A stretch of DNA of 64,000 nucleotides, from positions 124,001 through 188,000 of the forward strand of contig CALJNB010000005.1 in assembly GCA_937981985.1 (NCBI GenBank), given 5' to 3'. This stretch comes from an uncultured bacterium (GTDB lineage Bacteria; Myxococcota_A; Bradymonadia; Bradymonadales; Bradymonadaceae). Under the pieces are notes generated by a model. It did not search any database and was not told where the DNA came from. It saw only the letters and a program-made list of their open reading frames with translations. The position numbers were made by a program, and so were the translations under genes. This document shows positions 5,159 to 21,592 of the stretch, in pieces (positions within the stretch are counted from its first letter, which is position 1; every line of letters starts with the position of its first letter).

Positions 5159-8100
5159 ATGGAACGCTTCAGTCCAGGAACAGAAATTGCCGGTCGTTTC
5201 GAGATCCTCGGCGAGGTTGGGGAAGGCGGAATGGGCGCGGTATATAAGGCGCGTCAGACATCGCTTGATCGGATAGTTGCGTTAAAAGTTCTTCATTCCA
5301 CTGTCGCGTTCACGCCGAAAGCACGGCGTCGTTTTGGTCGAGAAGCCCGAGCCATTGCTAGATTAAACCACCCTCATATTGCGTCGGTCTTTGATTTTGG
5401 AACCGACGAGGCTGATGAGACTCTATGGCTGGCAATGGAGTATATCGACGGCGATGGGATGGGTTTTCTCAAGAAAGATCAAGTAGAGCTTTTACGTCTC
5501 GTTTCCATAGCAGATCAAATTTGTAGTGCGTTATCAGCCGCGCATGCACGCGGTATTATCCATCGTGATTTAAAGCCCTCCAATATCCTCATCACGAAAA
5601 ATGATGATGGCCAAGAAGTGATTAAGTTGGTCGATTTCGGATTAGCAGCGACTCAGGATGGCGAATTAAGTCTCAAAGACGCGCCGGGTGGATTGGAAGG
5701 TGTTTCTGAAGCTGCTGGACGGGGAATCTTGGGGACTCCCAGATACATGGCCCCGGAAATATTTAGACGTAAGCCCGTCGACCCTAGAGTAGATCTCTAC
5801 GCGCTCGGAATCATTCTTTACGAAATTCTTTCCGGTAAAGCTCCGTATCCAGGTAAAGATCCTAAAGTTATAATGCGTGGTCATTTACGCGAACCTATTC
5901 CGCAGTTGGTTGCTCGCCAAGGGATTTCGATTCCTCCAGAATTGGAATTCATTGTCTACAAGTTGCTGGATAAAGATCCTGACGAGCGCTATCAAACAGC
6001 CGCCGAAGTTCGCGAAGCGTTCATGTCAATCATCGGCGATTATAGTTATGTGCCGTGGGCGATGGGACCGAGTTTGGGCGATATGACGCAGACGGGATTT
6101 CTGGGGAATCGATCTCGGCCGGGTTTCCTCTCAAGTGTCGGAGGCCAGACCGTTCCGCCAGCGGCAATGATGCAGGGAAATTCCTCGCAAGTGGGTACCG
6201 GGACGGCACCGCTCGTCGGGCGTGAAAAAGAGCGACGCATGATCGAAAAGAAGATCGGCGAAGTGACTTTTCAGGAAGCGGGAGGGATGCTTTTCGTCGA
6301 AGGCGAAACAGGTATCGGGAAATCGCGATTAGCGGATTGGATTAAAGTCCGCGTTTTGGAATCCGGGATCATGCGATCCGTATCAGGTTATTTTTCTGAA
6401 CAGCGCTCCGGTTTTGATGGGATCCGGATGGTTCTCGATGAACTTTTGGGCACCAATGAACTCACTTATGGCGACGTGGAATATGCGATCCGGTCAAAAC
6501 TAAAATCGTGGGAGTTTTCGCAGATAGAAATTGAAACCTGCGTAGAACTTATGTCCCCCGGTGGTGACGTCGCATTATTTGATGCACAGGGGGACGCAGG
6601 AGACGATGATCTTTTAAGTCGTCGTGAACGGGTCTTCGCCGTCATTGAACAAATTCTTCGTCGAATCGCCAGTACACGCCCGTTACTTCTGATCTTTGAA
6701 GATATTCACAATGCCAATGGGACCACATTTTCCTTTCTCGAACATCTAGCCGTCGGGTTACATCTCTCTCCTGCTCAGATACTTATTTTCTCGACGTTGC
6801 GGACCGAAGCTCTTAGTTCAAACGATGAAATTGCTGATTCACTGAAACGCTTAACTAAATTCGGAACCGAAGTTACCCGGATTCCACTCGACGAGTTAAA
6901 CGAGCAAGATTCCATTACCTTGGTCAGACGTCTGATTCCTGTTTCAGAAATGTTGGCGCAAAAATTAGCCATTCAATCGGGCGGGAATGCGATGCATCTC
7001 GTTCAAATTATTCGTTACTTGCAACAAACTGAGAAACTTGCTTACCACGATGGCGTTTGGGAATTACGAGCTGGAGTAGATCTTCAGACCGAGGTTCCCG
7101 AAGAGCTCCGGGATCTTCTTGGACAGCGATTAGATCAAGTTCTGCGTACCTACCATGATGAAACAACCGTCCGTGCAGTGATTTTAAGATGCGCCATCTT
7201 GGGCAGAGAATTTGATTATCGACTTGTTCGAGCCTTTTTGGAAACCGATCCGACGATTCAAAACTTAGATGAAGTTTTAGAATTCCTTGTTAAACATTCG
7301 ATCTTCAGAGAAATCGGACAAAGTTCAGAAGATAAATTACGATTTCACCATGCCGTGATGCGTGATGTTTTGCTTACTGAAAATGCTTCGAATCGAAGCG
7401 TCCGAAATTTACACCGACAAGCGGCAGAATTGAAATATGCTTTTTACGGCGAACGCGCATCGAGTCACGCCTTAGAAATCGCTGACCATTATCGACACGC
7501 AAAAGATTCTCAAGGCGTTTATCGGTTTACGGTAAAGGGGGCACGAACAGCATTGGCGAGTTCGAATCTTCCGGAAGCGATTAAATTATATCGGGCAGCG
7601 AAAGTGATCGCAGATCGTGATCATAACACCTTTCCGATGGAGGTGAGTGGAGGTCTTGCTGAGACTTCGGTCGTGTTAAGGAGCTCCGAAGTAGCGTTAG
7701 AAGTGGCCTTATTGGAGTTGCGTTTAGGAGAATATCATGGTGCTCGAAGTCATTTCAGAGTGCTCCTGCGAGATCCATCACAATTCGTATCGGCTTGGGC
7801 ACGATGGGGATTAGGGGCGCTCGCGTTGGAGCAAGGAGAACTAGAAGAAGCGATCGGGTGGTTTGAAGCAACGGAAAGGGATGGGATAAAACTCGAAGAT
7901 AGCGGAAAAATAGTGACGTCGAGTTTACTTGGACGCGGTCGAATCGAATTTCTCCAAGGCAAACTCGGAGCGTCTAGCACAACATTAAAATCAGCTCTTG
8001 ATCGGGCCCAACAGCTTCATATTAGTGGGCTAGAGAGCGAAATTCTAAGGGTGTTGGCCGATGTGACTTGGATCATGGGTAAAGATGATCAATCCGATAT

Positions 8101-8875
8101 TTACCGACGCCGCGCAACCATCTTAGCTGAAACATCCAACGATCCCGAAGCGCTGGCCTTTTCAACATTCCAGGCAGCGCTTTACCATCGTAGAAATGGA
8201 AATGTCGTCCGAGCTATCGAACTACTTAAGAGTGCGATGGGAATGTTTGAAGACTTGGGAAAACGTCATCTTCTTGCACATTGTTTAGTCGAAAACGGTA
8301 AGCTCCGACTCGGTCAAGGAAATGTAAAAGAGGCCGCTAATACGCTTCGTGAAGCGTTACGTCTTTACGAAGGATTTGATGATCGTCGTGGTATCACTTC
8401 CTGCAAAACGGTGCTCGCCGAACTTGCCTTTTCTATCGGAAAAAAACGAGAAGCTAAGCGATTTATCGACGATGCTTTGGAAGGGTATCTGACGATGGGC
8501 GACCGGCGTGGCCAGGCGTATTGTAAACTACTTATGGGCGAAGTAGCGTTATCGATCGGCAAACCGCGCAGTGAAGTTTTCGTAAATTTGGTGAAAGAAT
8601 TTGAGCAAATTGAAGACCTTCGTGGAAAGCTGACCACAATGGCGTTTCTAGTAGTTGTTCTTATCTCGGAAGATAAAATTGAGGAGTGTAAGAAGACGCT
8701 CGAGGCGTTTTTGGAGGCGACAAGCGAGGTCGAAGTGGTTACTTCAACTTTTGCGCGAGCCCTCGATCTTATCGCGTCGCGTCTTAACGATGTTGATCCG
8801 AATCTGGCATTTACGATGGACGAGCACGCTGAATTAGCTTGGACCCGTTTAGGTAAGAAGTCGACGCCAAGTTAA
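5159..8875 (+). CDS. Ser/Thr protein kinase fused to AAA ATPase and TPR repeats (PknK-like)
   Basis: This 1238-residue signalling protein has a eukaryotic-type kinase domain at about 10-290. It shows the glycine loop GEVGEGGMGAVY (18-29), the ATP lysine K43 in VALKVL, the catalytic HRDLKPSN (D137), DFG (159-161) and the GTPRYMAPE activation segment, so it should be active. A linker leads to an ATPase module with Walker A GETGIGKS (382-389) and an acidic Walker B-like LLLIFED. From about residue 800 to the end lie helical pairs of TPR type, which usually bind partner proteins. The architecture is that of PknK and the large kinases of Myxococcota, which couple phosphorylation to a STAND-like regulatory switch. 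No membrane segment is seen. The target is unknown. Confidence 0.95.
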   Translation: MERFSPGTEIAGRFEILGEVGEGGMGAVYKARQTSLDRIVALKVLHSTVAFTPKARRRFGREARAIARLNHPHIASVFDFGTDEADETLWLAMEYIDGDGMGFLKKDQVELLRLVSIADQICSALSAAHARGIIHRDLKPSNILITKNDDGQEVIKLVDFGLAATQDGELSLKDAPGGLEGVSEAAGRGILGTPRYMAPEIFRRKPVDPRVDLYALGIILYEILSGKAPYPGKDPKVIMRGHLREPIPQLVARQGISIPPELEFIVYKLLDKDPDERYQTAAEVREAFMSIIGDYSYVPWAMGPSLGDMTQTGFLGNRSRPGFLSSVGGQTVPPAAMMQGNSSQVGTGTAPLVGREKERRMIEKKIGEVTFQEAGGMLFVEGETGIGKSRLADWIKVRVLESGIMRSVSGYFSEQRSGFDGIRMVLDELLGTNELTYGDVEYAIRSKLKSWEFSQIEIETCVELMSPGGDVALFDAQGDAGDDDLLSRRERVFAVIEQILRRIASTRPLLLIFEDIHNANGTTFSFLEHLAVGLHLSPAQILIFSTLRTEALSSNDEIADSLKRLTKFGTEVTRIPLDELNEQDSITLVRRLIPVSEMLAQKLAIQSGGNAMHLVQIIRYLQQTEKLAYHDGVWELRAGVDLQTEVPEELRDLLGQRLDQVLRTYHDETTVRAVILRCAILGREFDYRLVRAFLETDPTIQNLDEVLEFLVKHSIFREIGQSSEDKLRFHHAVMRDVLLTENASNRSVRNLHRQAAELKYAFYGERASSHALEIADHYRHAKDSQGVYRFTVKGARTALASSNLPEAIKLYRAAKVIADRDHNTFPMEVSGGLAETSVVLRSSEVALEVALLELRLGEYHGARSHFRVLLRDPSQFVSAWARWGLGALALEQGELEEAIGWFEATERDGIKLEDSGKIVTSSLLGRGRIEFLQGKLGASSTTLKSALDRAQQLHISGLESEILRVLADVTWIMGKDDQSDIYRRRATILAETSNDPEALAFSTFQAALYHRRNGNVVRAIELLKSAMGMFEDLGKRHLLAHCLVENGKLRLGQGNVKEAANTLREALRLYEGFDDRRGITSCKTVLAELAFSIGKKREAKRFIDDALEGYLTMGDRRGQAYCKLLMGEVALSIGKPRSEVFVNLVKEFEQIEDLRGKLTTMAFLVVVLISEDKIEECKKTLEAFLEATSEVEVVTSTFARALDLIASRLNDVDPNLAFTMDEHAELAWTRLGKKSTPS

Positions 8876-11282: not shown

Positions 11283-12641
11283 ATGACCGAGACTCGACAT
11301 CATCATATCTTGCTCGTTACTGGCGATGAAGAAATCGGTGGCACGATCAAAACTAATCTCGAAAGCGAGGATTGGGGCGTGGAGTTATGCTTAGAACACT
11401 CCGAAGTGATAGAAAAAATTAACGAATCAAAATATGCGTGTATTATTGCCCATGATAGCGCATCTCAAGGTCGGGTTCGGGATGTCTTGACGTCGATTAA
11501 CGTCGGTTCAAAAACACCGATCGTCGCCCTGATAAAAGGAGACGATGTAAAGACTGCAGTGGATGCAATGAAGCTCGGCGCAAGAACGGTTGTTGAGTTT
11601 ACCGAAGACAATCTCGTTGCTCTCAACACCGCGATAAATGACGCACTTCCGAAAGGAGCGGTTCCTCTAAAAGGTTCCGACCCGAGAGACATCATCGTGC
11701 GGTCGTCTACTTCTCCCTTGAATGAACTTTTAGAAATGTTGCCTCCCATCGCGCACGCTCAAGCACCAGTTCTAATTACTGGCGAGTCAGGTACCGGTAA
11801 GGAACTTTTCGCGCGCACCATTCATAATATGAGCGAACGCAAAGACGGACCTTTTTTGGCAGTCAATTGCGGAGCTATTCCCGAAACGCTTTTAGAAAGT
11901 GAACTTTTTGGATACATGAAAGGTGCCTTTACAGGGGCTCATACGGATAGAAAGGGTTTTTTCGAAGCTGCTGAAAATGGAACGCTTTTTTTGGATGAAA
12001 TTGGCGAAATGCCGATGCGTCTTCAGGTTAAAATTCTGCGTGTTCTTCAGGAGCATGATGTTCGGCCCGTAGGATCGACAGAAACACGTCCGGTCAATTT
12101 CCGCCTCATTACAGCGACGAATAGGAATCTAGAGAACGAAATCAAAACTGGCGACTTTCGTGAAGATCTCTTCTATCGTATTGCCGTTCTTCCACTTCAT
12201 TTGCTTCCTCTACGTGATCGCCTCGCCGATATTAGCGTATTAGCTGAATTCTTTCTCGCTGAACAAAACCGCGTAAATGGTACGTCTTTAAAAGGAATTA
12301 CTTCGGAATGTTATACCCATCTAAAGCGATATGCCTGGCCGGGAAACATACGTGAGTTAGAGAACCTTATCCAACGTGTGTGTATTCTTAAAAGAAGCGG
12401 ATTTGTTGAACGTGACGATCTCCCAAATCAGATTACAGGCATTGGTAGGCGTTCTCAACAACTTGGACTTTACGTTCCCAGTGAGGGAATGGATATGGCT
12501 GACACGCTTGGCCAACTGGAAGTTCAATTGGTTTCCCAAGCATTGAAAAAGTCGAACGGTAACAAGGCAAAAGCGGCTCGACTTTTAGGCCTCAATAGAA
12601 CTACCTTAGTAGAGAAAATTAAACGCTTGAAACTAGAGTAG
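11283..12641 (+). CDS. Sigma54-dependent activator with a degenerate receiver domain
   Basis: The 452-residue protein has NtrC architecture. A receiver-like domain (8-122) precedes an AAA+ domain (about 136-375). Walker A is GESGTGKE (167-174), the sigma54-contacting loop GAFTGA is intact (214-219), and Walker B is LFLDEIGE (235-242). A Fis-type helix-turn-helix (about 412-450, NKAKAARLLGLNRTTLVEKI) ends the protein. The ATPase and DNA-binding parts look functional. In the receiver, alignment by eye puts His57 at the phospho-acceptor position (an Asp is one residue later), Ile at the conserved Ser/Thr, and Glu at the conserved Lys. Control by phosphorylation is therefore doubtful. It precedes two unknown genes (12645, 13192). 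Confidence 0.95.
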   Translation: MTETRHHHILLVTGDEEIGGTIKTNLESEDWGVELCLEHSEVIEKINESKYACIIAHDSASQGRVRDVLTSINVGSKTPIVALIKGDDVKTAVDAMKLGARTVVEFTEDNLVALNTAINDALPKGAVPLKGSDPRDIIVRSSTSPLNELLEMLPPIAHAQAPVLITGESGTGKELFARTIHNMSERKDGPFLAVNCGAIPETLLESELFGYMKGAFTGAHTDRKGFFEAAENGTLFLDEIGEMPMRLQVKILRVLQEHDVRPVGSTETRPVNFRLITATNRNLENEIKTGDFREDLFYRIAVLPLHLLPLRDRLADISVLAEFFLAEQNRVNGTSLKGITSECYTHLKRYAWPGNIRELENLIQRVCILKRSGFVERDDLPNQITGIGRRSQQLGLYVPSEGMDMADTLGQLEVQLVSQALKKSNGNKAKAARLLGLNRTTLVEKIKRLKLE

Positions 12642-15210: not shown

Positions 15211-15240
15211 CTATAACCCGCTGTTTTAAAACGGGATTAA
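15211..15240. promoter_or_regulatory. Inverted repeat in the divergent tlyA / methyltransferase interval
   Basis: A perfect 10-bp palindrome GTTTTAAAAC (15223-15232) is nested between CCCG (15217-15220) and CGGG (15232-15235). It lies between the divergent lipoprotein-tlyA operon and the methyltransferase-helicase genes. It could be an operator for the accessory module or a weak hairpin. Restriction-modification operons often carry controller sites here, but no controller gene is present. Confidence 0.3.
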
Positions 15241-15299
15241 CAAAAAGTTTAAAACCAAATTTGCCGACGGCCGAATAGGCGTTTGCAAAGGAGGCTATC

Positions 15300-18257
15300 A
15301 TGCACGCAACGTTTTCCGAACTTATAAACCAACAAAAGTGGAAACCCTTTTCAACGCATTTAGGGCTGAACTATCTGGGGATCGACGTCGAACCGGCTGA
15401 TTATTGTATTTGGAATATTCCCGAAGATTTTGACGGTAATATCTCGCTGATTGCCGAAGGCAAAGGTGTAAGACTGCTCTCGGTGAGTGATTCGACTTCT
15501 GAAAAGAAGCTTACTCATATGGTACGTCTTTGTTCGCTGAAAACCGAAGACCGTATTCTATGGGTGGTTCTAGGCGAAACCCCACGACTCGCTTTTTTCG
15601 ATAAGCTAACGCTCAAAATAAAGAGCGTGGAAGTGTTCTGTCTAGATAGTAAGGATCTGGATTTCGAGAAGCGTCCCGATGAATCGTTAACCGAAATTTT
15701 TGACACATCGGAATTAACTGAAAGTTTTTTTCGAAACTTCAGGAAAAGTCATCAACTGCTCGCAAATGCGATCGAAAACGGCCCGCAAGATTACGAGTCT
15801 CGAAATCGAGTTGCGTTAACTTGGTTGCTTCGAATTACTTTTCTCTACTTCGCCCAGTCGCATGGTGCGCTCAACGGTGATTTAAACTATTTAGCTAAAG
15901 CATTAAATATCTATACATCGAAGTCCGAACATCAGTTTCACCTTATCTTCCTCAATGTCATTTTCTTCGATCTTTTGAATACACAAACGTCGAAACGCAA
16001 GTGGGAGGCCAAAAAATTGGGTGCGATCCCTTTTTTAAACGGGGGTTTATTCGAACCAAGTTCCGACGAGGTGAAATGGAAAACGATTGTAGTTCATAAC
16101 TCAGTTTGGTCGACCGTCTTCAAAACATTGTTCGAAAAATACAAATTCGTTTCTGAAAGAGCAAATTTTGTTGATGCTAACGCAATAGATCCGGAAATGT
16201 TGGGGAAAGTATTCGAAGCGTTGATGTCCGTCGGAGATCGTAAGCGGACAGGAGCTTTTTACACACCTCGTAAAATAATTCGGTCGATGGTTGAGGAGGG
16301 AATTTACGGTTGCCTCGTCGATAAGATCGAAGGATTAGATTCAAAATGTCTGAGTTCTGATCTTCGGTGCCATCCGAAACGTGACAAAATAATAGCGAAG
16401 CTAAATTCTCTCCGAATTCTGGACCCCGCAGTTGGGACCGGCGGTTTTCTTATGGATGCCCTTCATGTGATTCAAGATTTACGACAGCGATTGGGACTGC
16501 CTTACGAGGGAAAAGAAATCCAGATCCTGATTCATCGTCATCTCTTTGGCGTGGATAAAAATCCTATCGCGATACGTCTTTGTGAGTTGAGATTTTGGTT
16601 GCAAATCTTAACAAGCTATGGCGGTTCGATTCGCGAACTTCCTCCTCTTCCGAATCTATCTCATCGCTTTGTATCTGGTGACGCATTGTTAGACCCTTTT
16701 GAAACCGTGTCCTCTTCGATTACACGCGCAAGATGGAAATCGATTGCGGATCTGCAACGTGATTTCTCTCGTTCGCATGGAAGCATTAAGCATGCACTTA
16801 AACATCGGATTGATAGAGAAAAAAGAAATCTACAAATGGCTGAGATTTTGATTCGTAAGCAGAAGCAAATTGAAGAAAAAACGCTCCTCGATGTAGCTCT
16901 TTCAGGTAAGGACTTACTTGGAGCTCCGATTAAGTCGACTCGATTTCAGAACGAAGTGTTGCGAAATAACATTCGGGAGGAATCCGAACTGGTATCGCTT
17001 GAAGAGCGTGTAAAACGATCGGCCGAAGCCCCCGTTTTTTCGTTCCATTCTCAGTTTCCTGATGTCATGAGGCGAGGCGGGTTCGATCTCATATTGATGA
17101 ATCCGCCTTGGGTCCGTCATCATCACATTCCGTCTAAGGAACGCAAGATTCTCGAAAAAAGATACGGTTCCAATTCCGGAAAGTTGTGGACTGAAGCAAA
17201 GTCTCAGAATGTGCGCTCTCGTTATGGGTCCCAGAATGATCTTTCTTCGATGTTTCTCGAGAAAGCGACAGAACTCTGCAGGCCTCATGGGCGAGTCGTC
17301 GCGCTTGTTCCGTCAAAAATAATGCGAGGGATATCTAGTGCTCCGATTCGAGGTCTATTGGGCCGACTGGATTTGCAAACGGTCACCGACCTAAGCGAAA
17401 GTAATGAACGCCTTTTTGACGCAACGACTTATCCAGCAATTGTTAGTTTCAGAAATCAGAAGCCTCAGGGACGATTACGGACATCATCGTCCGAAGATGG
17501 GACCGAAGACAAAGATCGGAACGAGCTTATGTTGTTTGGAGACGACTTTCGGGCGCCTTGGACGTGTCAGAACCGAGGCTTAGTTAGCATTATTCGAGAG
17601 GTAGCTCTCAAACACAGGCCTCTTGGTTCGTTTTCGAACCTACAGCCTCGACGCGGTATCTATACCGGATCAAACGAGATATTTGTTAAAAGATGTGGTG
17701 ACTTCCCTCCATCGTTCTCTAAGTACCTTCGGCCAGTCGTTGAGGGGAAGGGCAGAAAGCGAGAACTTCTTTATTTATATGACGCTAAAGGCATTCCGCT
17801 TGTTGAGGTAGCCGATGAGGTGGAAGACTATTTCGAACGCAATCGGTCTAAGCTTTTAGCGCGCGCGGACCATAACCCAAAGAAGCCGCTTTGGCAGATC
17901 TTTAGAAATCACCGCGATCTTTTTGGGCCGAAAATAATCTGGAAAGATATTTCCAAATGGTTTGAACCTTTGCTCGATAATACGAACGCAATTCCTCTCA
18001 ATACGATTTATCTGATTCCCTGCAGAGATACTGAGCTAGGAAAGCGTCTCATTAGGTATTTTAAATCCGATTTCGTCCAAGCCTTTGTACGCCTTTTGGG
18101 TGAACGGGTGAGTGGTGGACATCGGCGTCATTTCGCTTGGGCCATTCAATGCATTCCTATTCCAGAACGCGTGATATACGGAGAAGGCCGAGGATTGGAG
18201 CTTAATGCACGCGATAAAAAAATTCTTTTAGATTTTGTCGAAAATGAGAAGTTGTGA
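15300..18257 (+). CDS. Eco57I-type adenine-specific DNA methyltransferase
   Basis: The 985-residue protein is most like the large class I N6-adenine methyltransferases of the type IIG/Eco57I group. The N-terminal 170 residues are unassigned. A helical segment follows (about 175-320). The conserved RTGAFYTPRKIIRSMVEEG leads to SAM motif I DPAVGTGGFLMDAL (D375) and HLFGVDKNPIAIRLCELRFW. Catalytic motif IV NPPW is at 601-604. The C-terminal third (about 760-985) is the likely target recognition domain. I see no clear PD-(D/E)xK nuclease, unlike fused type IIG enzymes. A strong AAGGAGG precedes the ATG. The end overlaps the helicase gene. It should methylate adenine in a specific site and mark self DNA. 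Confidence 0.93.
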   Translation: MHATFSELINQQKWKPFSTHLGLNYLGIDVEPADYCIWNIPEDFDGNISLIAEGKGVRLLSVSDSTSEKKLTHMVRLCSLKTEDRILWVVLGETPRLAFFDKLTLKIKSVEVFCLDSKDLDFEKRPDESLTEIFDTSELTESFFRNFRKSHQLLANAIENGPQDYESRNRVALTWLLRITFLYFAQSHGALNGDLNYLAKALNIYTSKSEHQFHLIFLNVIFFDLLNTQTSKRKWEAKKLGAIPFLNGGLFEPSSDEVKWKTIVVHNSVWSTVFKTLFEKYKFVSERANFVDANAIDPEMLGKVFEALMSVGDRKRTGAFYTPRKIIRSMVEEGIYGCLVDKIEGLDSKCLSSDLRCHPKRDKIIAKLNSLRILDPAVGTGGFLMDALHVIQDLRQRLGLPYEGKEIQILIHRHLFGVDKNPIAIRLCELRFWLQILTSYGGSIRELPPLPNLSHRFVSGDALLDPFETVSSSITRARWKSIADLQRDFSRSHGSIKHALKHRIDREKRNLQMAEILIRKQKQIEEKTLLDVALSGKDLLGAPIKSTRFQNEVLRNNIREESELVSLEERVKRSAEAPVFSFHSQFPDVMRRGGFDLILMNPPWVRHHHIPSKERKILEKRYGSNSGKLWTEAKSQNVRSRYGSQNDLSSMFLEKATELCRPHGRVVALVPSKIMRGISSAPIRGLLGRLDLQTVTDLSESNERLFDATTYPAIVSFRNQKPQGRLRTSSSEDGTEDKDRNELMLFGDDFRAPWTCQNRGLVSIIREVALKHRPLGSFSNLQPRRGIYTGSNEIFVKRCGDFPPSFSKYLRPVVEGKGRKRELLYLYDAKGIPLVEVADEVEDYFERNRSKLLARADHNPKKPLWQIFRNHRDLFGPKIIWKDISKWFEPLLDNTNAIPLNTIYLIPCRDTELGKRLIRYFKSDFVQAFVRLLGERVSGGHRRHFAWAIQCIPIPERVIYGEGRGLELNARDKKILLDFVENEKL

Positions 18258-20427
18258 TCTGGCGGCGATTTTTCTCAGCTCCCTTTCAGGTCAGGTTAAG
18301 CCACTGAATCTGTCTTACTTGAATGATTCTCAAAACAGTTGTTCAGCGCAGCTTCTCAAGATCGTTGAACGTTTTGGTGGGGCGTTACTTGCAGATCCTG
18401 TTGGAAGCGGGAAAACCCGAGTCGCGATAGCTGTCGCTACAGAGTTCAATGGTTCAAGAAAAATATGTGTGATTGCGCCAGCAAGAATTCGAAAACACTG
18501 GATTTCTGAAGTTAAAAAGTGCGGCTTTGGGGAGGTGGAGTTTTATAGCCATACTTTTTTAAGCCGCAACGAGAACGTTCAGCCCGAGAGCAAATTTATC
18601 GTCGTAGACGAAGCACACCATTTCAGAAACCCAAGGGCAAAAAGGTCAGTTCGGCTAAAGAAAATTCTTGAAGCGAAACCGTGCTTATTGGTTAGTGCAA
18701 CTCCCTTCGTAAACCGTGAGCGGGATCTGAGGATTCTTATTCGATATTTTTTAGACGATGCGGACGCGATAAAGCAGCTGGGTATCGACCCCAATCTAGA
18801 AAATGCCGCCGACCTCAAATCTCTCTTGTATAATCTTTGTGTTCGTAGGGCATACGAAAGCTTACCAGATCTAGACGTCGTCGAAGTCCCATATCGTCTG
18901 TCAGAAACCGAGATTTCTTTTATGACTTTATTGGTAACGACCTTGTCCGATATTACTTTCGAGGCGTTGAAGTATGAATGGCCGAAGGGGCTTGTTACTC
19001 AATTTTTATTGGCACAACTCCGTTCTGGGTTAGCGGCTTTGCTCGATTCTTTATTATCGATAGTTTCTTATTATGAAGAGTGGCTTTCGGCGGCAGAAAA
19101 CAACTTAGGAATGAATCGTCGCTTTTTTTTAGACATGTTTCCGAATGGCCAGCTACCGTTGAGTTTTATGTATCCAGCTCTTCGTCTTGGCGATGCGGCA
19201 AAAGTAAAAAAAGAACTTCATAAATTGAGAACGGTATTGGGGATGTTGCTAGGGATAAAATCCTACTCTCGAGAGGAAGCGGCGATTGGAGCGTGTCTAA
19301 GCGGAGAGAGAATGCTTATATTCACGTCTAAGATTTCGGTCGCAGAATCGCTTTTTCGGCGCTATTTAAAATCGGGCTTTCGCGTTGGAATGATTCATTC
19401 AAAAAGATGTCTTTTGAGCGGAATCGGAGAGGTAGAGCCGTCGGAGATAATAAGTAAATTCAGGGAAGGCGATGAGCAAAACAAGATTTCGATACTAGTC
19501 GCCACCGATTGTTTATCCGAAGGAGTATCTTTTCCGAGATGTTCGAATCTCATGTTAATTGATATTCCCGATACGGCTCTGAAAATCGAACAACGTATCG
19601 GTAGAATTGTTAGGATGAACAGTTTATATGATGCTTCGAAGGTCTATGTCTTGAAGCCCACAAACGCTGTCGCTTTTGCGGACTCCTTTTCGATTGTCTC
19701 GGAACGTAAATCAAAAAAATCAACTGAGTTGGGATTTCAATACAAACTGGCAGCGAGTATTTTTGGTGAAAAAAAAGAGAGTGGGTGTCCTTTTTCCGCG
19801 TTGTTAGAAATTCGTGATATATTGAAGAATATCGATATAGTAAATCCGAATAGGAATCCTATTCTAGGAAAACAGTTCTCGGTCAAAAACTCTGATTTTG
19901 ATATTTCATCATTAACGCTTGTGAAAATTTTGGAGGGTGATGACTTTTTTTCATATCATTGGGTCGCTATGCGTGGGGGCAAATTAGTCACGAGGTGGGA
20001 GGATATTCGAAGCAGCCTTCGATGTTTAGCTAGCTTAGATGATATGGCTGATGCAGATATTGATTGGGTGTTAAGCAAGAAAGAAACGCATTACTTTGAG
20101 GCATTTATCAACCGAAAAAATTTGACGCGTTTTCGTCCTGCACCAGAACGAAAGAGTGACTCCCTTTCACTTTACATCGCTAATCGGGTTCGTGGTTTTG
20201 CGCTTTCAAGCGAAGAGTCACAACATGTTGCAGACCTTTTGCGCACTCCATTTTCACGAGCTCAGCGACTGGGTATCCAAGCTCTAGTGGGGTCGACTAA
20301 TGCGAATATTTTAGCGCATTTATTGGATATGGAGGTCGGCCGGATGGAGAAACTCGTTTACCAGGTTGTTCTTAGAATTCGTTTTATTGAAAGCGCGATT
20401 TTTCTTAAGAGTTTCCGATCAGGTTAA
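18244..20427 (+). CDS. SF2 (SNF2-like) helicase/translocase partnered with the methyltransferase
   Basis: The preferred start is ATG 18244 (a TTG at 18235 is an alternative), giving about 727 residues and a 14-base overlap with the methyltransferase gene. Walker A is DPVGSGKT (about 51-58), motif II is DEAH (122-125), and SATPF marks motif III. The second RecA-like lobe has ATDCLSEGVSFPRCSNLML, and motif VI is EQRIGRIVRMN (Q450). These are the helicase motifs of superfamily 2 translocases. The C-terminal 230 residues are unassigned and end in a helical region. No nuclease motif is seen. The gene pair suggests a DNA-defence module in which the translocase acts with the methyltransferase. Confidence 0.9.
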   Translation: MRSCDLAAIFLSSLSGQVKPLNLSYLNDSQNSCSAQLLKIVERFGGALLADPVGSGKTRVAIAVATEFNGSRKICVIAPARIRKHWISEVKKCGFGEVEFYSHTFLSRNENVQPESKFIVVDEAHHFRNPRAKRSVRLKKILEAKPCLLVSATPFVNRERDLRILIRYFLDDADAIKQLGIDPNLENAADLKSLLYNLCVRRAYESLPDLDVVEVPYRLSETEISFMTLLVTTLSDITFEALKYEWPKGLVTQFLLAQLRSGLAALLDSLLSIVSYYEEWLSAAENNLGMNRRFFLDMFPNGQLPLSFMYPALRLGDAAKVKKELHKLRTVLGMLLGIKSYSREEAAIGACLSGERMLIFTSKISVAESLFRRYLKSGFRVGMIHSKRCLLSGIGEVEPSEIISKFREGDEQNKISILVATDCLSEGVSFPRCSNLMLIDIPDTALKIEQRIGRIVRMNSLYDASKVYVLKPTNAVAFADSFSIVSERKSKKSTELGFQYKLAASIFGEKKESGCPFSALLEIRDILKNIDIVNPNRNPILGKQFSVKNSDFDISSLTLVKILEGDDFFSYHWVAMRGGKLVTRWEDIRSSLRCLASLDDMADADIDWVLSKKETHYFEAFINRKNLTRFRPAPERKSDSLSLYIANRVRGFALSSEESQHVADLLRTPFSRAQRLGIQALVGSTNANILAHLLDMEVGRMEKLVYQVVLRIRFIESAIFLKSFRSG

Positions 20428-21359
20428 TTGCGGCTTTTACGAAAGGAAAAAATCGCCAAAAAGACGAGTAGGCAAAAAACAGAATTCGATCTTCCAAGGG
20501 TGTTACAACGACCTTCCCCAATAATTTCGGTCGAGTCAGAACTTTCGTTTGGGGTAGTTGTTTTCGGAATGACGTCTGATTTTTTTCCAATGCATTCGCC
20601 GGTATAATACCGACACGTTGTAGAACAACTTAACATTCCACCCTCCAACTCCAGAGATTCGCAGGTCTTTCCGCCTAGATCACTTCCATCACATTCTTCT
20701 GGCATTTGTATGACTTCGTCTCCGCAGGTATCCGCTACGCCCGAACAATCTGAGTCATCGATTTTGCATAGCGTGTTGCAAGCTAGCGTTCCCTCTTTAA
20801 AGCCTAAAGTCTGACAAGATTCACCGTCAAAGTTTGAACCATCACATTCCTCGGTGTTTGGATCAACCTCTCCGTCGCCGCAAACGAAACAAGCGGAGGT
20901 GTCAAATTTACAAAGATCTGAACAGCGCACCTTTCCGATACCAAGGCCTAAGGATTGACAGGTGACCGTGTTACCCACACCGCCGTCACAGTCTTCCACG
21001 CTTTCCAGCTTATCGTTACCGCATGGGTTTTCGTCTTTAAAACCGGGATTCCAATAATCACCGCTCGGGGCCGGGTCGCCGACGCGCCAATTCGCGTCGG
21101 GGTCGCCTAATTCTAGGCCGTTGGAATATCCGTCACCGTCACTGTCCATTGCTGCAAGTTTTGGCCAATCAATCGGTCCCTCCGAAGCCGCTTCATAGGC
21201 ATCGAAGCCGAACTCAGTAATGCCTCGATTGGGTTGTGTATGGCACGCATTACATGTGATTGTATTTCCGTGAGGAAATTGATTTTGCCTTCCATCATTT
21301 CGTGCATACGAAGTGGTCGAAAAAAGTAGCACAAAGCAAAACAGCCCGAATCGGTACAA
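20424..21359 (-). CDS. Secreted cysteine-rich protein with C-terminal Cys/TM/basic sorting tail
   Basis: The start is probably TTG 21359 (a second TTG is at 21389), because GGAGAGAGA stands just before it and a signal peptide follows (FGLFCFVLLFSTTSYA). The mature protein has one CNACHT motif, which could bind haem, then a calcium-type segment DSDGDGYSNGLELGDP. Three or four repeats of the DUF4215 type follow (CGDGEVDPNTEECDGS; CGDEVIQMPEECDGS). The C-terminus GRCNTLGRSNS, then hydrophobic helix VFCLLVFLAIF, then SFRKSRN is a MYXO-CTERM-like sorting signal. Its TAA overlaps the helicase stop, so the two genes are convergent. It is probably surface-exposed; no enzymatic role is seen. Confidence 0.85.
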   Translation of the reverse strand: MYRFGLFCFVLLFSTTSYARNDGRQNQFPHGNTITCNACHTQPNRGITEFGFDAYEAASEGPIDWPKLAAMDSDGDGYSNGLELGDPDANWRVGDPAPSGDYWNPGFKDENPCGNDKLESVEDCDGGVGNTVTCQSLGLGIGKVRCSDLCKFDTSACFVCGDGEVDPNTEECDGSNFDGESCQTLGFKEGTLACNTLCKIDDSDCSGVADTCGDEVIQMPEECDGSDLGGKTCESLELEGGMLSCSTTCRYYTGECIGKKSDVIPKTTTPNESSDSTEIIGEGRCNTLGRSNSVFCLLVFLAIFSFRKSRN

Positions 21360-21592
21360 TAGTCTCTCTCCAATTAATTGGGAGTTCAAAGTGTACCCTA
21401 AATCAGCTCGATTACGAAAAAAGTAGATTTTGTGTTGATTCCAAACCTAAGGTTTTGAAGAAATTTCTGTGGAGTGCTATTTATCCTTCACTATGAAGTT
21501 AATGTCGTTTTAAATGGGGCAAATTGACGAAATCCACCCGCAAAGGATATGGCATCAATTGTGCTGAAGTCTGCGATGTAAAGTGAGACCCA

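Follow-up and report, generated by a model that had tools for sequence, protein, structure and literature searches.

A two-gene locus of a Bradymonadaceae genome raises the question of what a DNA methyltransferase and a DNA translocase do together when neither carries a nuclease. The locus lies within a 64,000-nucleotide stretch of one contig (the window), and all coordinates given here are window positions on the forward strand. The upstream gene (15300-18257) encodes a 985-residue Eco57I-type N6-adenine DNA methyltransferase, and the downstream gene (18235-20427), which overlaps it, encodes a 730-residue Swi2/Snf2-type SF2 translocase; both assignments come from ORF calls, Pfam matches, and predicted structures. 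The original prediction described a large methyltransferase overlapping a complete SF2 helicase, which the ORFs, Pfam, and motif conservation confirm, and interpreted the two genes as a candidate DNA-defence system. For what the pair is, there is about an even chance that it represents a nuclease-free, vertically inherited methyltransferase-translocase operon, kin of a restriction system made of a methyltransferase and a PLD-nuclease/Snf2 protein. No published description of the pair was found in the open-licence literature.

Both genes are genuine and intact; the Walker A, DEAH, SATP, QRIGR, DPAVGTGGF, and NPPW motifs are kept across relatives, so chance ORFs are excluded. A Shine-Dalgarno-like sequence, AAAGGAGG (15287-15294), precedes the ATG of the methyltransferase gene. 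The length of the helicase is counted from a TTG at 18235, but translation more likely begins at the in-frame ATG at position 18244. The divergent intergenic region 5' of the methyltransferase gene also contains an imperfect palindrome, CCCGCTGTTTTAAAACGGG (15213-15231), a possible operator.

The methyltransferase matches the Pfam families Eco57I (1.1e-20) and N6_Mtase (3e-10), and its AlphaFold model is good (pLDDT 88.9), with M.BseCI and CamA as the best fold matches, followed by MmeI and BrxX/PglX. Structure prediction and conservation delimit a small alpha/beta domain at residues 1-125 (15300-15674), at the position of the type IIG nuclease, which is followed by a helical spacer resembling MmeI_hel/DUF7814 (15675-16169). 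The catalytic core contains the SAM-binding motif I, DPAVGTGGF (16422-16448), and the N6-adenine catalytic motif IV, NPPW (17100-17111), present in all 65 full-length relatives. A TaqI_C-like target-recognition region (17520-18179) is conserved nearly in step with the core; the Pfam matches to the MmeI_hel spacer and TaqI_C fall under the cut-offs.

The helicase matches SNF2-rel_dom and Helicase_C. Its Walker A motif GSGKT (18403-18417), Walker B motif DEAH (18607-18618), and SATP motif are kept across relatives, as is motif VI, QRIGR (19591-19605), which reads QRxGRxxR in 58 of 58. The AlphaFold model is of moderate confidence (pLDDT 76.3); its best fold matches are Swi2/Snf2 motors, RapA first, then CSB, ISWI, and others. 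The C-terminal ~255 residues (19660-20424) form a beta meander followed by helices and are poorly conserved, with just two positions reaching 75% conservation.

Domain searches, predicted structures, and patterns of residue conservation all failed to reveal a nuclease in either protein, in agreement with the original prediction, which had singled out the N-terminus of the methyltransferase and the C-terminus of the helicase as places where such a fold might be hidden. Nuclease Pfam matches were absent from all 28 methyltransferases and all 22 helicases scanned. Among 21 relatives, only G22, W38, and W88 are conserved within methyltransferase residues 1-125, and an alignment of 42 relatives has no invariant column before residue 143 other than the start methionine. 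A cryptic PD-(D/E)xK motif (D...EGK) considered at residues 52-67 is ruled out, as a congener reads LGKKK there. A nuclease in the helicase C-terminus is likewise ruled out by the absence from this region of any Pfam domain and of conserved catalytic residues.

The pair can be compared with several named systems. In type ISP enzymes a single polypeptide combines the nuclease, SF2 ATPase, methyltransferase, and target-recognition domain (TRD), and translocation begins upon target binding (PMC7049714). The pair shares with LlaGI and LlaBIII the N6-adenine methyltransferase, TRD, and SF2 dsDNA translocase, but these enzymes are one chain with an N-terminal nuclease, whereas here there are two ORFs and no nuclease domain; the split arrangement relative to type ISP that had been proposed is supported, and the pair without nuclease recurs. 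The type IIG/IIL enzymes (MmeI, Eco57I family) have a comparable helical spacer, methyltransferase core, and TaqI-like TRD, the spacer and TRD likeness being below Pfam cut-offs; the pair differs from them in that its N-terminal domain lacks conserved PD-(D/E)xK residues (1-142) and its translocase is a separate protein. For BREX, the PglX-type methyltransferase model scores 32 bits against a cut-off of 500, and a scan of adjacent genes in the window turned up no BREX core genes (PglZ, BrxC, and others). SauUSI and CglI/NgoAVII also use SF2 dsDNA motors in restriction but retain a PLD nuclease and have other recognition domains. CamA of Clostridioides difficile, with M.BseCI the closest methyltransferase fold, is a lineage-conserved, core orphan methyltransferase without a nuclease; the pair resembles such lineage-core enzymes in being near-universal, vertically inherited, and free of a cognate nuclease, but CamA has no partner translocase.

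The original prediction drew the contrasts with type ISP and DISARM correctly but missed the closest relatives, in which the helicase has an N-terminal PLD nuclease. These next relatives, from Bacteroidota, Cyanobacteria, Chloroflexota, and archaea, encode in neighbouring genes a homologous methyltransferase and a homologous Snf2 helicase of about 1,050-1,170 residues; this PLD group was taken as the best 80 loci from two peptide-pattern searches, and for loci L085-L140 PADLOC gives the labels REase_MTase_IIG and HKD/Snf2 or DrmD-like. The PLD-group helicase has a median of 215 additional residues at its N-terminus (42 loci), and this extra part gave a PLDc_2 match in each of the seven helicases scanned, with HxK and GSSN invariant (for example, L087:10675-11319). 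In contrast, none of the 22 helicases of the Bradymonadia/Gemmatimonadota clade matched PLDc, and their N-terminal extension is about zero; where GC-rich genomes seem to show an extension, the ORF has mostly run on into the overlapping methyltransferase gene. The clade is split from the PLD group with support of 1.0 for the methyltransferase and 0.999 for the helicase, in trees built without an outgroup; the PLD domain may have been lost in the clade or gained in the PLD group. L063 and L067, which branch early among the helicases, carry an additional 165-190 N-terminal residues without a PLD match; hhalign gives no support for a decayed PLD domain there.

The methyltransferase and PLD-Snf2 pair, usually encoded helicase first, in the reverse order to the clade, looks like an ATP-dependent restriction system with a SauUSI-like layout (PLD, then SF2) and its own methyltransferase; this widespread pair has no NCBIfam system match above cut-off. 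The two groups also differ in their recognition domains. At equal core identity, the ratio of TRD to core identity is 0.76-0.85 in Bradymonadaceae and 0.88-0.93 in Gemmatimonadota versus 0.59-0.70, with wider scatter, in the PLD group, which is taxonomically broader than the clade; the ratios are approximate because domain boundaries were set from motif offsets. This difference is consistent with a recognition site that stays constant within the clade and with sites that diversify within the restriction-like PLD group.

Bradymonadia are a predatory bacterial class. Genes related to restriction tend to be mobile and patchily distributed. With orthology defined as at least 550 bits in a class profile search, the methyltransferase is present, in single copy, in 39 of 57 Bradymonadia genomes: 19 of 21 in the host family Bradymonadaceae, all of those in families f2 (5), f4 (6), f5 (8), and f6 (1), and none in f3 (0/13) or f7 (0/3). 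It is absent from 91 Myxococcota genomes outside Bradymonadia and present in 49 of 81 sampled Gemmatimonadota genomes; the pair is missing from two Bradymonadia families and ~40% of the sampled Gemmatimonadota and is thus not essential across them. As a control, HsdR_N matches above 100 bits were obtained in only 6 of the 21 host-family genomes. The coordinates place the two genes adjacent on one strand in 30 Bradymonadia genomes; in one other (G004) they are two genes apart and divergent, and several further loci are interrupted by contig ends. Of 34 testable Gemmatimonadota loci, 33 have the helicase gene directly downstream, in one case across a 742-base gap. Across ~65 loci there is no recurring nuclease gene beside the pair, and no near-universal third gene was found.

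Ordinary chromosomal genes flank the pair, with partial synteny between genera. The neighbours in the window encode an S4/FtsJ (TlyA-like) methyltransferase, a Temptin_C protein, and VWA proteins, by which a defence island at this locus is ruled out; the genomic evidence as a whole argues against an island of the usual defence type. On the plasmid and phage records searched there was no close relative, the best plasmid match being 27% identical (Nostoc).

Inheritance of the pair follows the chromosome. For 25 Bradymonadia genomes, methyltransferase and RpoB distances are correlated (Spearman Mantel rho 0.89, 0 of 5000 permutations; 0.82 inside Bradymonadaceae), and the two trees have 15 of 22 splits in common with no conflict at support of at least 0.95. 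The helicase co-varies more closely with the methyltransferase (0.92) than with RpoB (0.68) inside Bradymonadaceae. The pair is thereby shown to be vertically inherited with the chromosome in Bradymonadia, its members co-varying, and dN/dS of 0.22-0.28 in one genus shows both enzymes to be under purifying selection. Both proteins evolve faster than RpoB (median identity 0.43 for the methyltransferase versus 0.76), a divergence that also suits peripheral or defence genes. The distribution and inheritance of the pair are unlike those of ordinary anti-virus systems.

The pair probably retains one fixed methylation site that is read by a dsDNA translocase. The methyltransferase would set N6-methyladenine at this one sequence, and the Snf2 motor would dock on the methyltransferase, as the ATPase does in type ISP enzymes. 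By analogy to the start of type ISP translocation at target binding, the motor would be triggered or released at unmethylated sites and would then move along duplex DNA and displace the proteins bound to it. The purpose would most likely be a lineage-fixed chromosome role, either epigenetic control or the clearing and maintenance of newly replicated DNA; the analysis leans this way because the distribution is ancient, vertical, and near-universal and recognition is conserved. That the pair is a domesticated restriction relative, in which a fixed adenine mark and a Snf2 motor have long acted jointly on the host chromosome in Bradymonadia and much of Gemmatimonadota, is put forward tentatively, at somewhat less than an even chance.

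Defence against unmodified foreign DNA is a close rival to the chromosome role. Here methylation would be a self mark, and the Snf2 motor would load on unmethylated incoming phage or plasmid DNA and block its replication or transcription. DISARM functions without its nuclease DrmC, a physical block to replication being proposed (PMC9142583); an analogous block is proposed for DISARM step III and BREX, the sequence relatives of the pair are mostly defence or restriction-modification proteins (REase_MTase_IIG, DrmMI, DrmD, DpdE), and both proteins diverge rapidly. The label of a DNA-defence system is nevertheless unsupported as it stands, since the pair is single-copy, near-universal, and vertical over five Bradymonadia families, lies outside defence islands, has a conserved TRD, and gave no close match in the plasmid and phage records covered, while ordinary restriction genes are patchy in the same genomes; a nuclease-independent anti-phage or anti-plasmid system is a real possibility, given perhaps a third of the weight. 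If cleavage were instead supplied in trans by a host nuclease, the pair would be a split restriction system, a reading suggested by the PLD nuclease on the helicase of the outside relatives and by the proposal that DISARM borrows host PLD nucleases (PMC9142583), but made unlikely by the lack of both a recurring nuclease gene nearby and a cryptic nuclease domain in the proteins scanned.

DISARM also pairs an adenine methyltransferase (DrmMI) with a SNF2 helicase (DrmD) and has no obligatory nuclease, and the weak similarity to these proteins might mark the pair as a remnant of such a system. This is highly improbable: the helicase scores 70 bits against a cut-off of 610 for the DrmD equivalog, the sole MZB/DUF1998 protein found in the host genome (a MAG ~85% complete) is an MrfA-type helicase, and the neighbourhood survey, which the original prediction had proposed, finds the pair recurring alone across two phyla with no drm genes beside it. 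On these grounds a DISARM remnant is rejected; the pair, vertically inherited and outside defence islands, is not a drmABC system, and no relic of one is visible. Another genome of the same genus (G001) encodes a ~614-residue MZB (DUF1998/DrmB-like) protein and a 1094-residue SNF2 helicase (C213, C76) on contigs other than that of the pair, possibly a separate DISARM-like system beside it.

If the chromosome role holds, the domesticated pair would be the bacterial analogue of chromatin remodelling coupled to methylation. More broadly, the pair is a natural case either of a domesticated restriction-like module or of a core nuclease-free defence, and bears on whether methylation-sensing motors work without DNA cutting. 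Cultivable carriers include Bradymonas sediminis and likely Persicimonas caeni; three cultivable carriers were sequenced with SMRT reads, and the methylation motif may therefore be readable in existing data.

Several other genes of the window encode signalling proteins, among them a 1238-residue Ser/Thr protein kinase (5159-8875) that also contains AAA_16 and TPR repeats and matches PADLOC PD-T4-6 through its kinase domain. The window also encodes a sigma-54 activator (11283-12641), the AAA+/HTH part of which strongly matches RtcR/PspF-like models (E 3e-117). The Temptin_C protein (20424-21389) ends in a Cys/hydrophobic/basic tail that, by eye, is like a MYXO-CTERM sorting signal.
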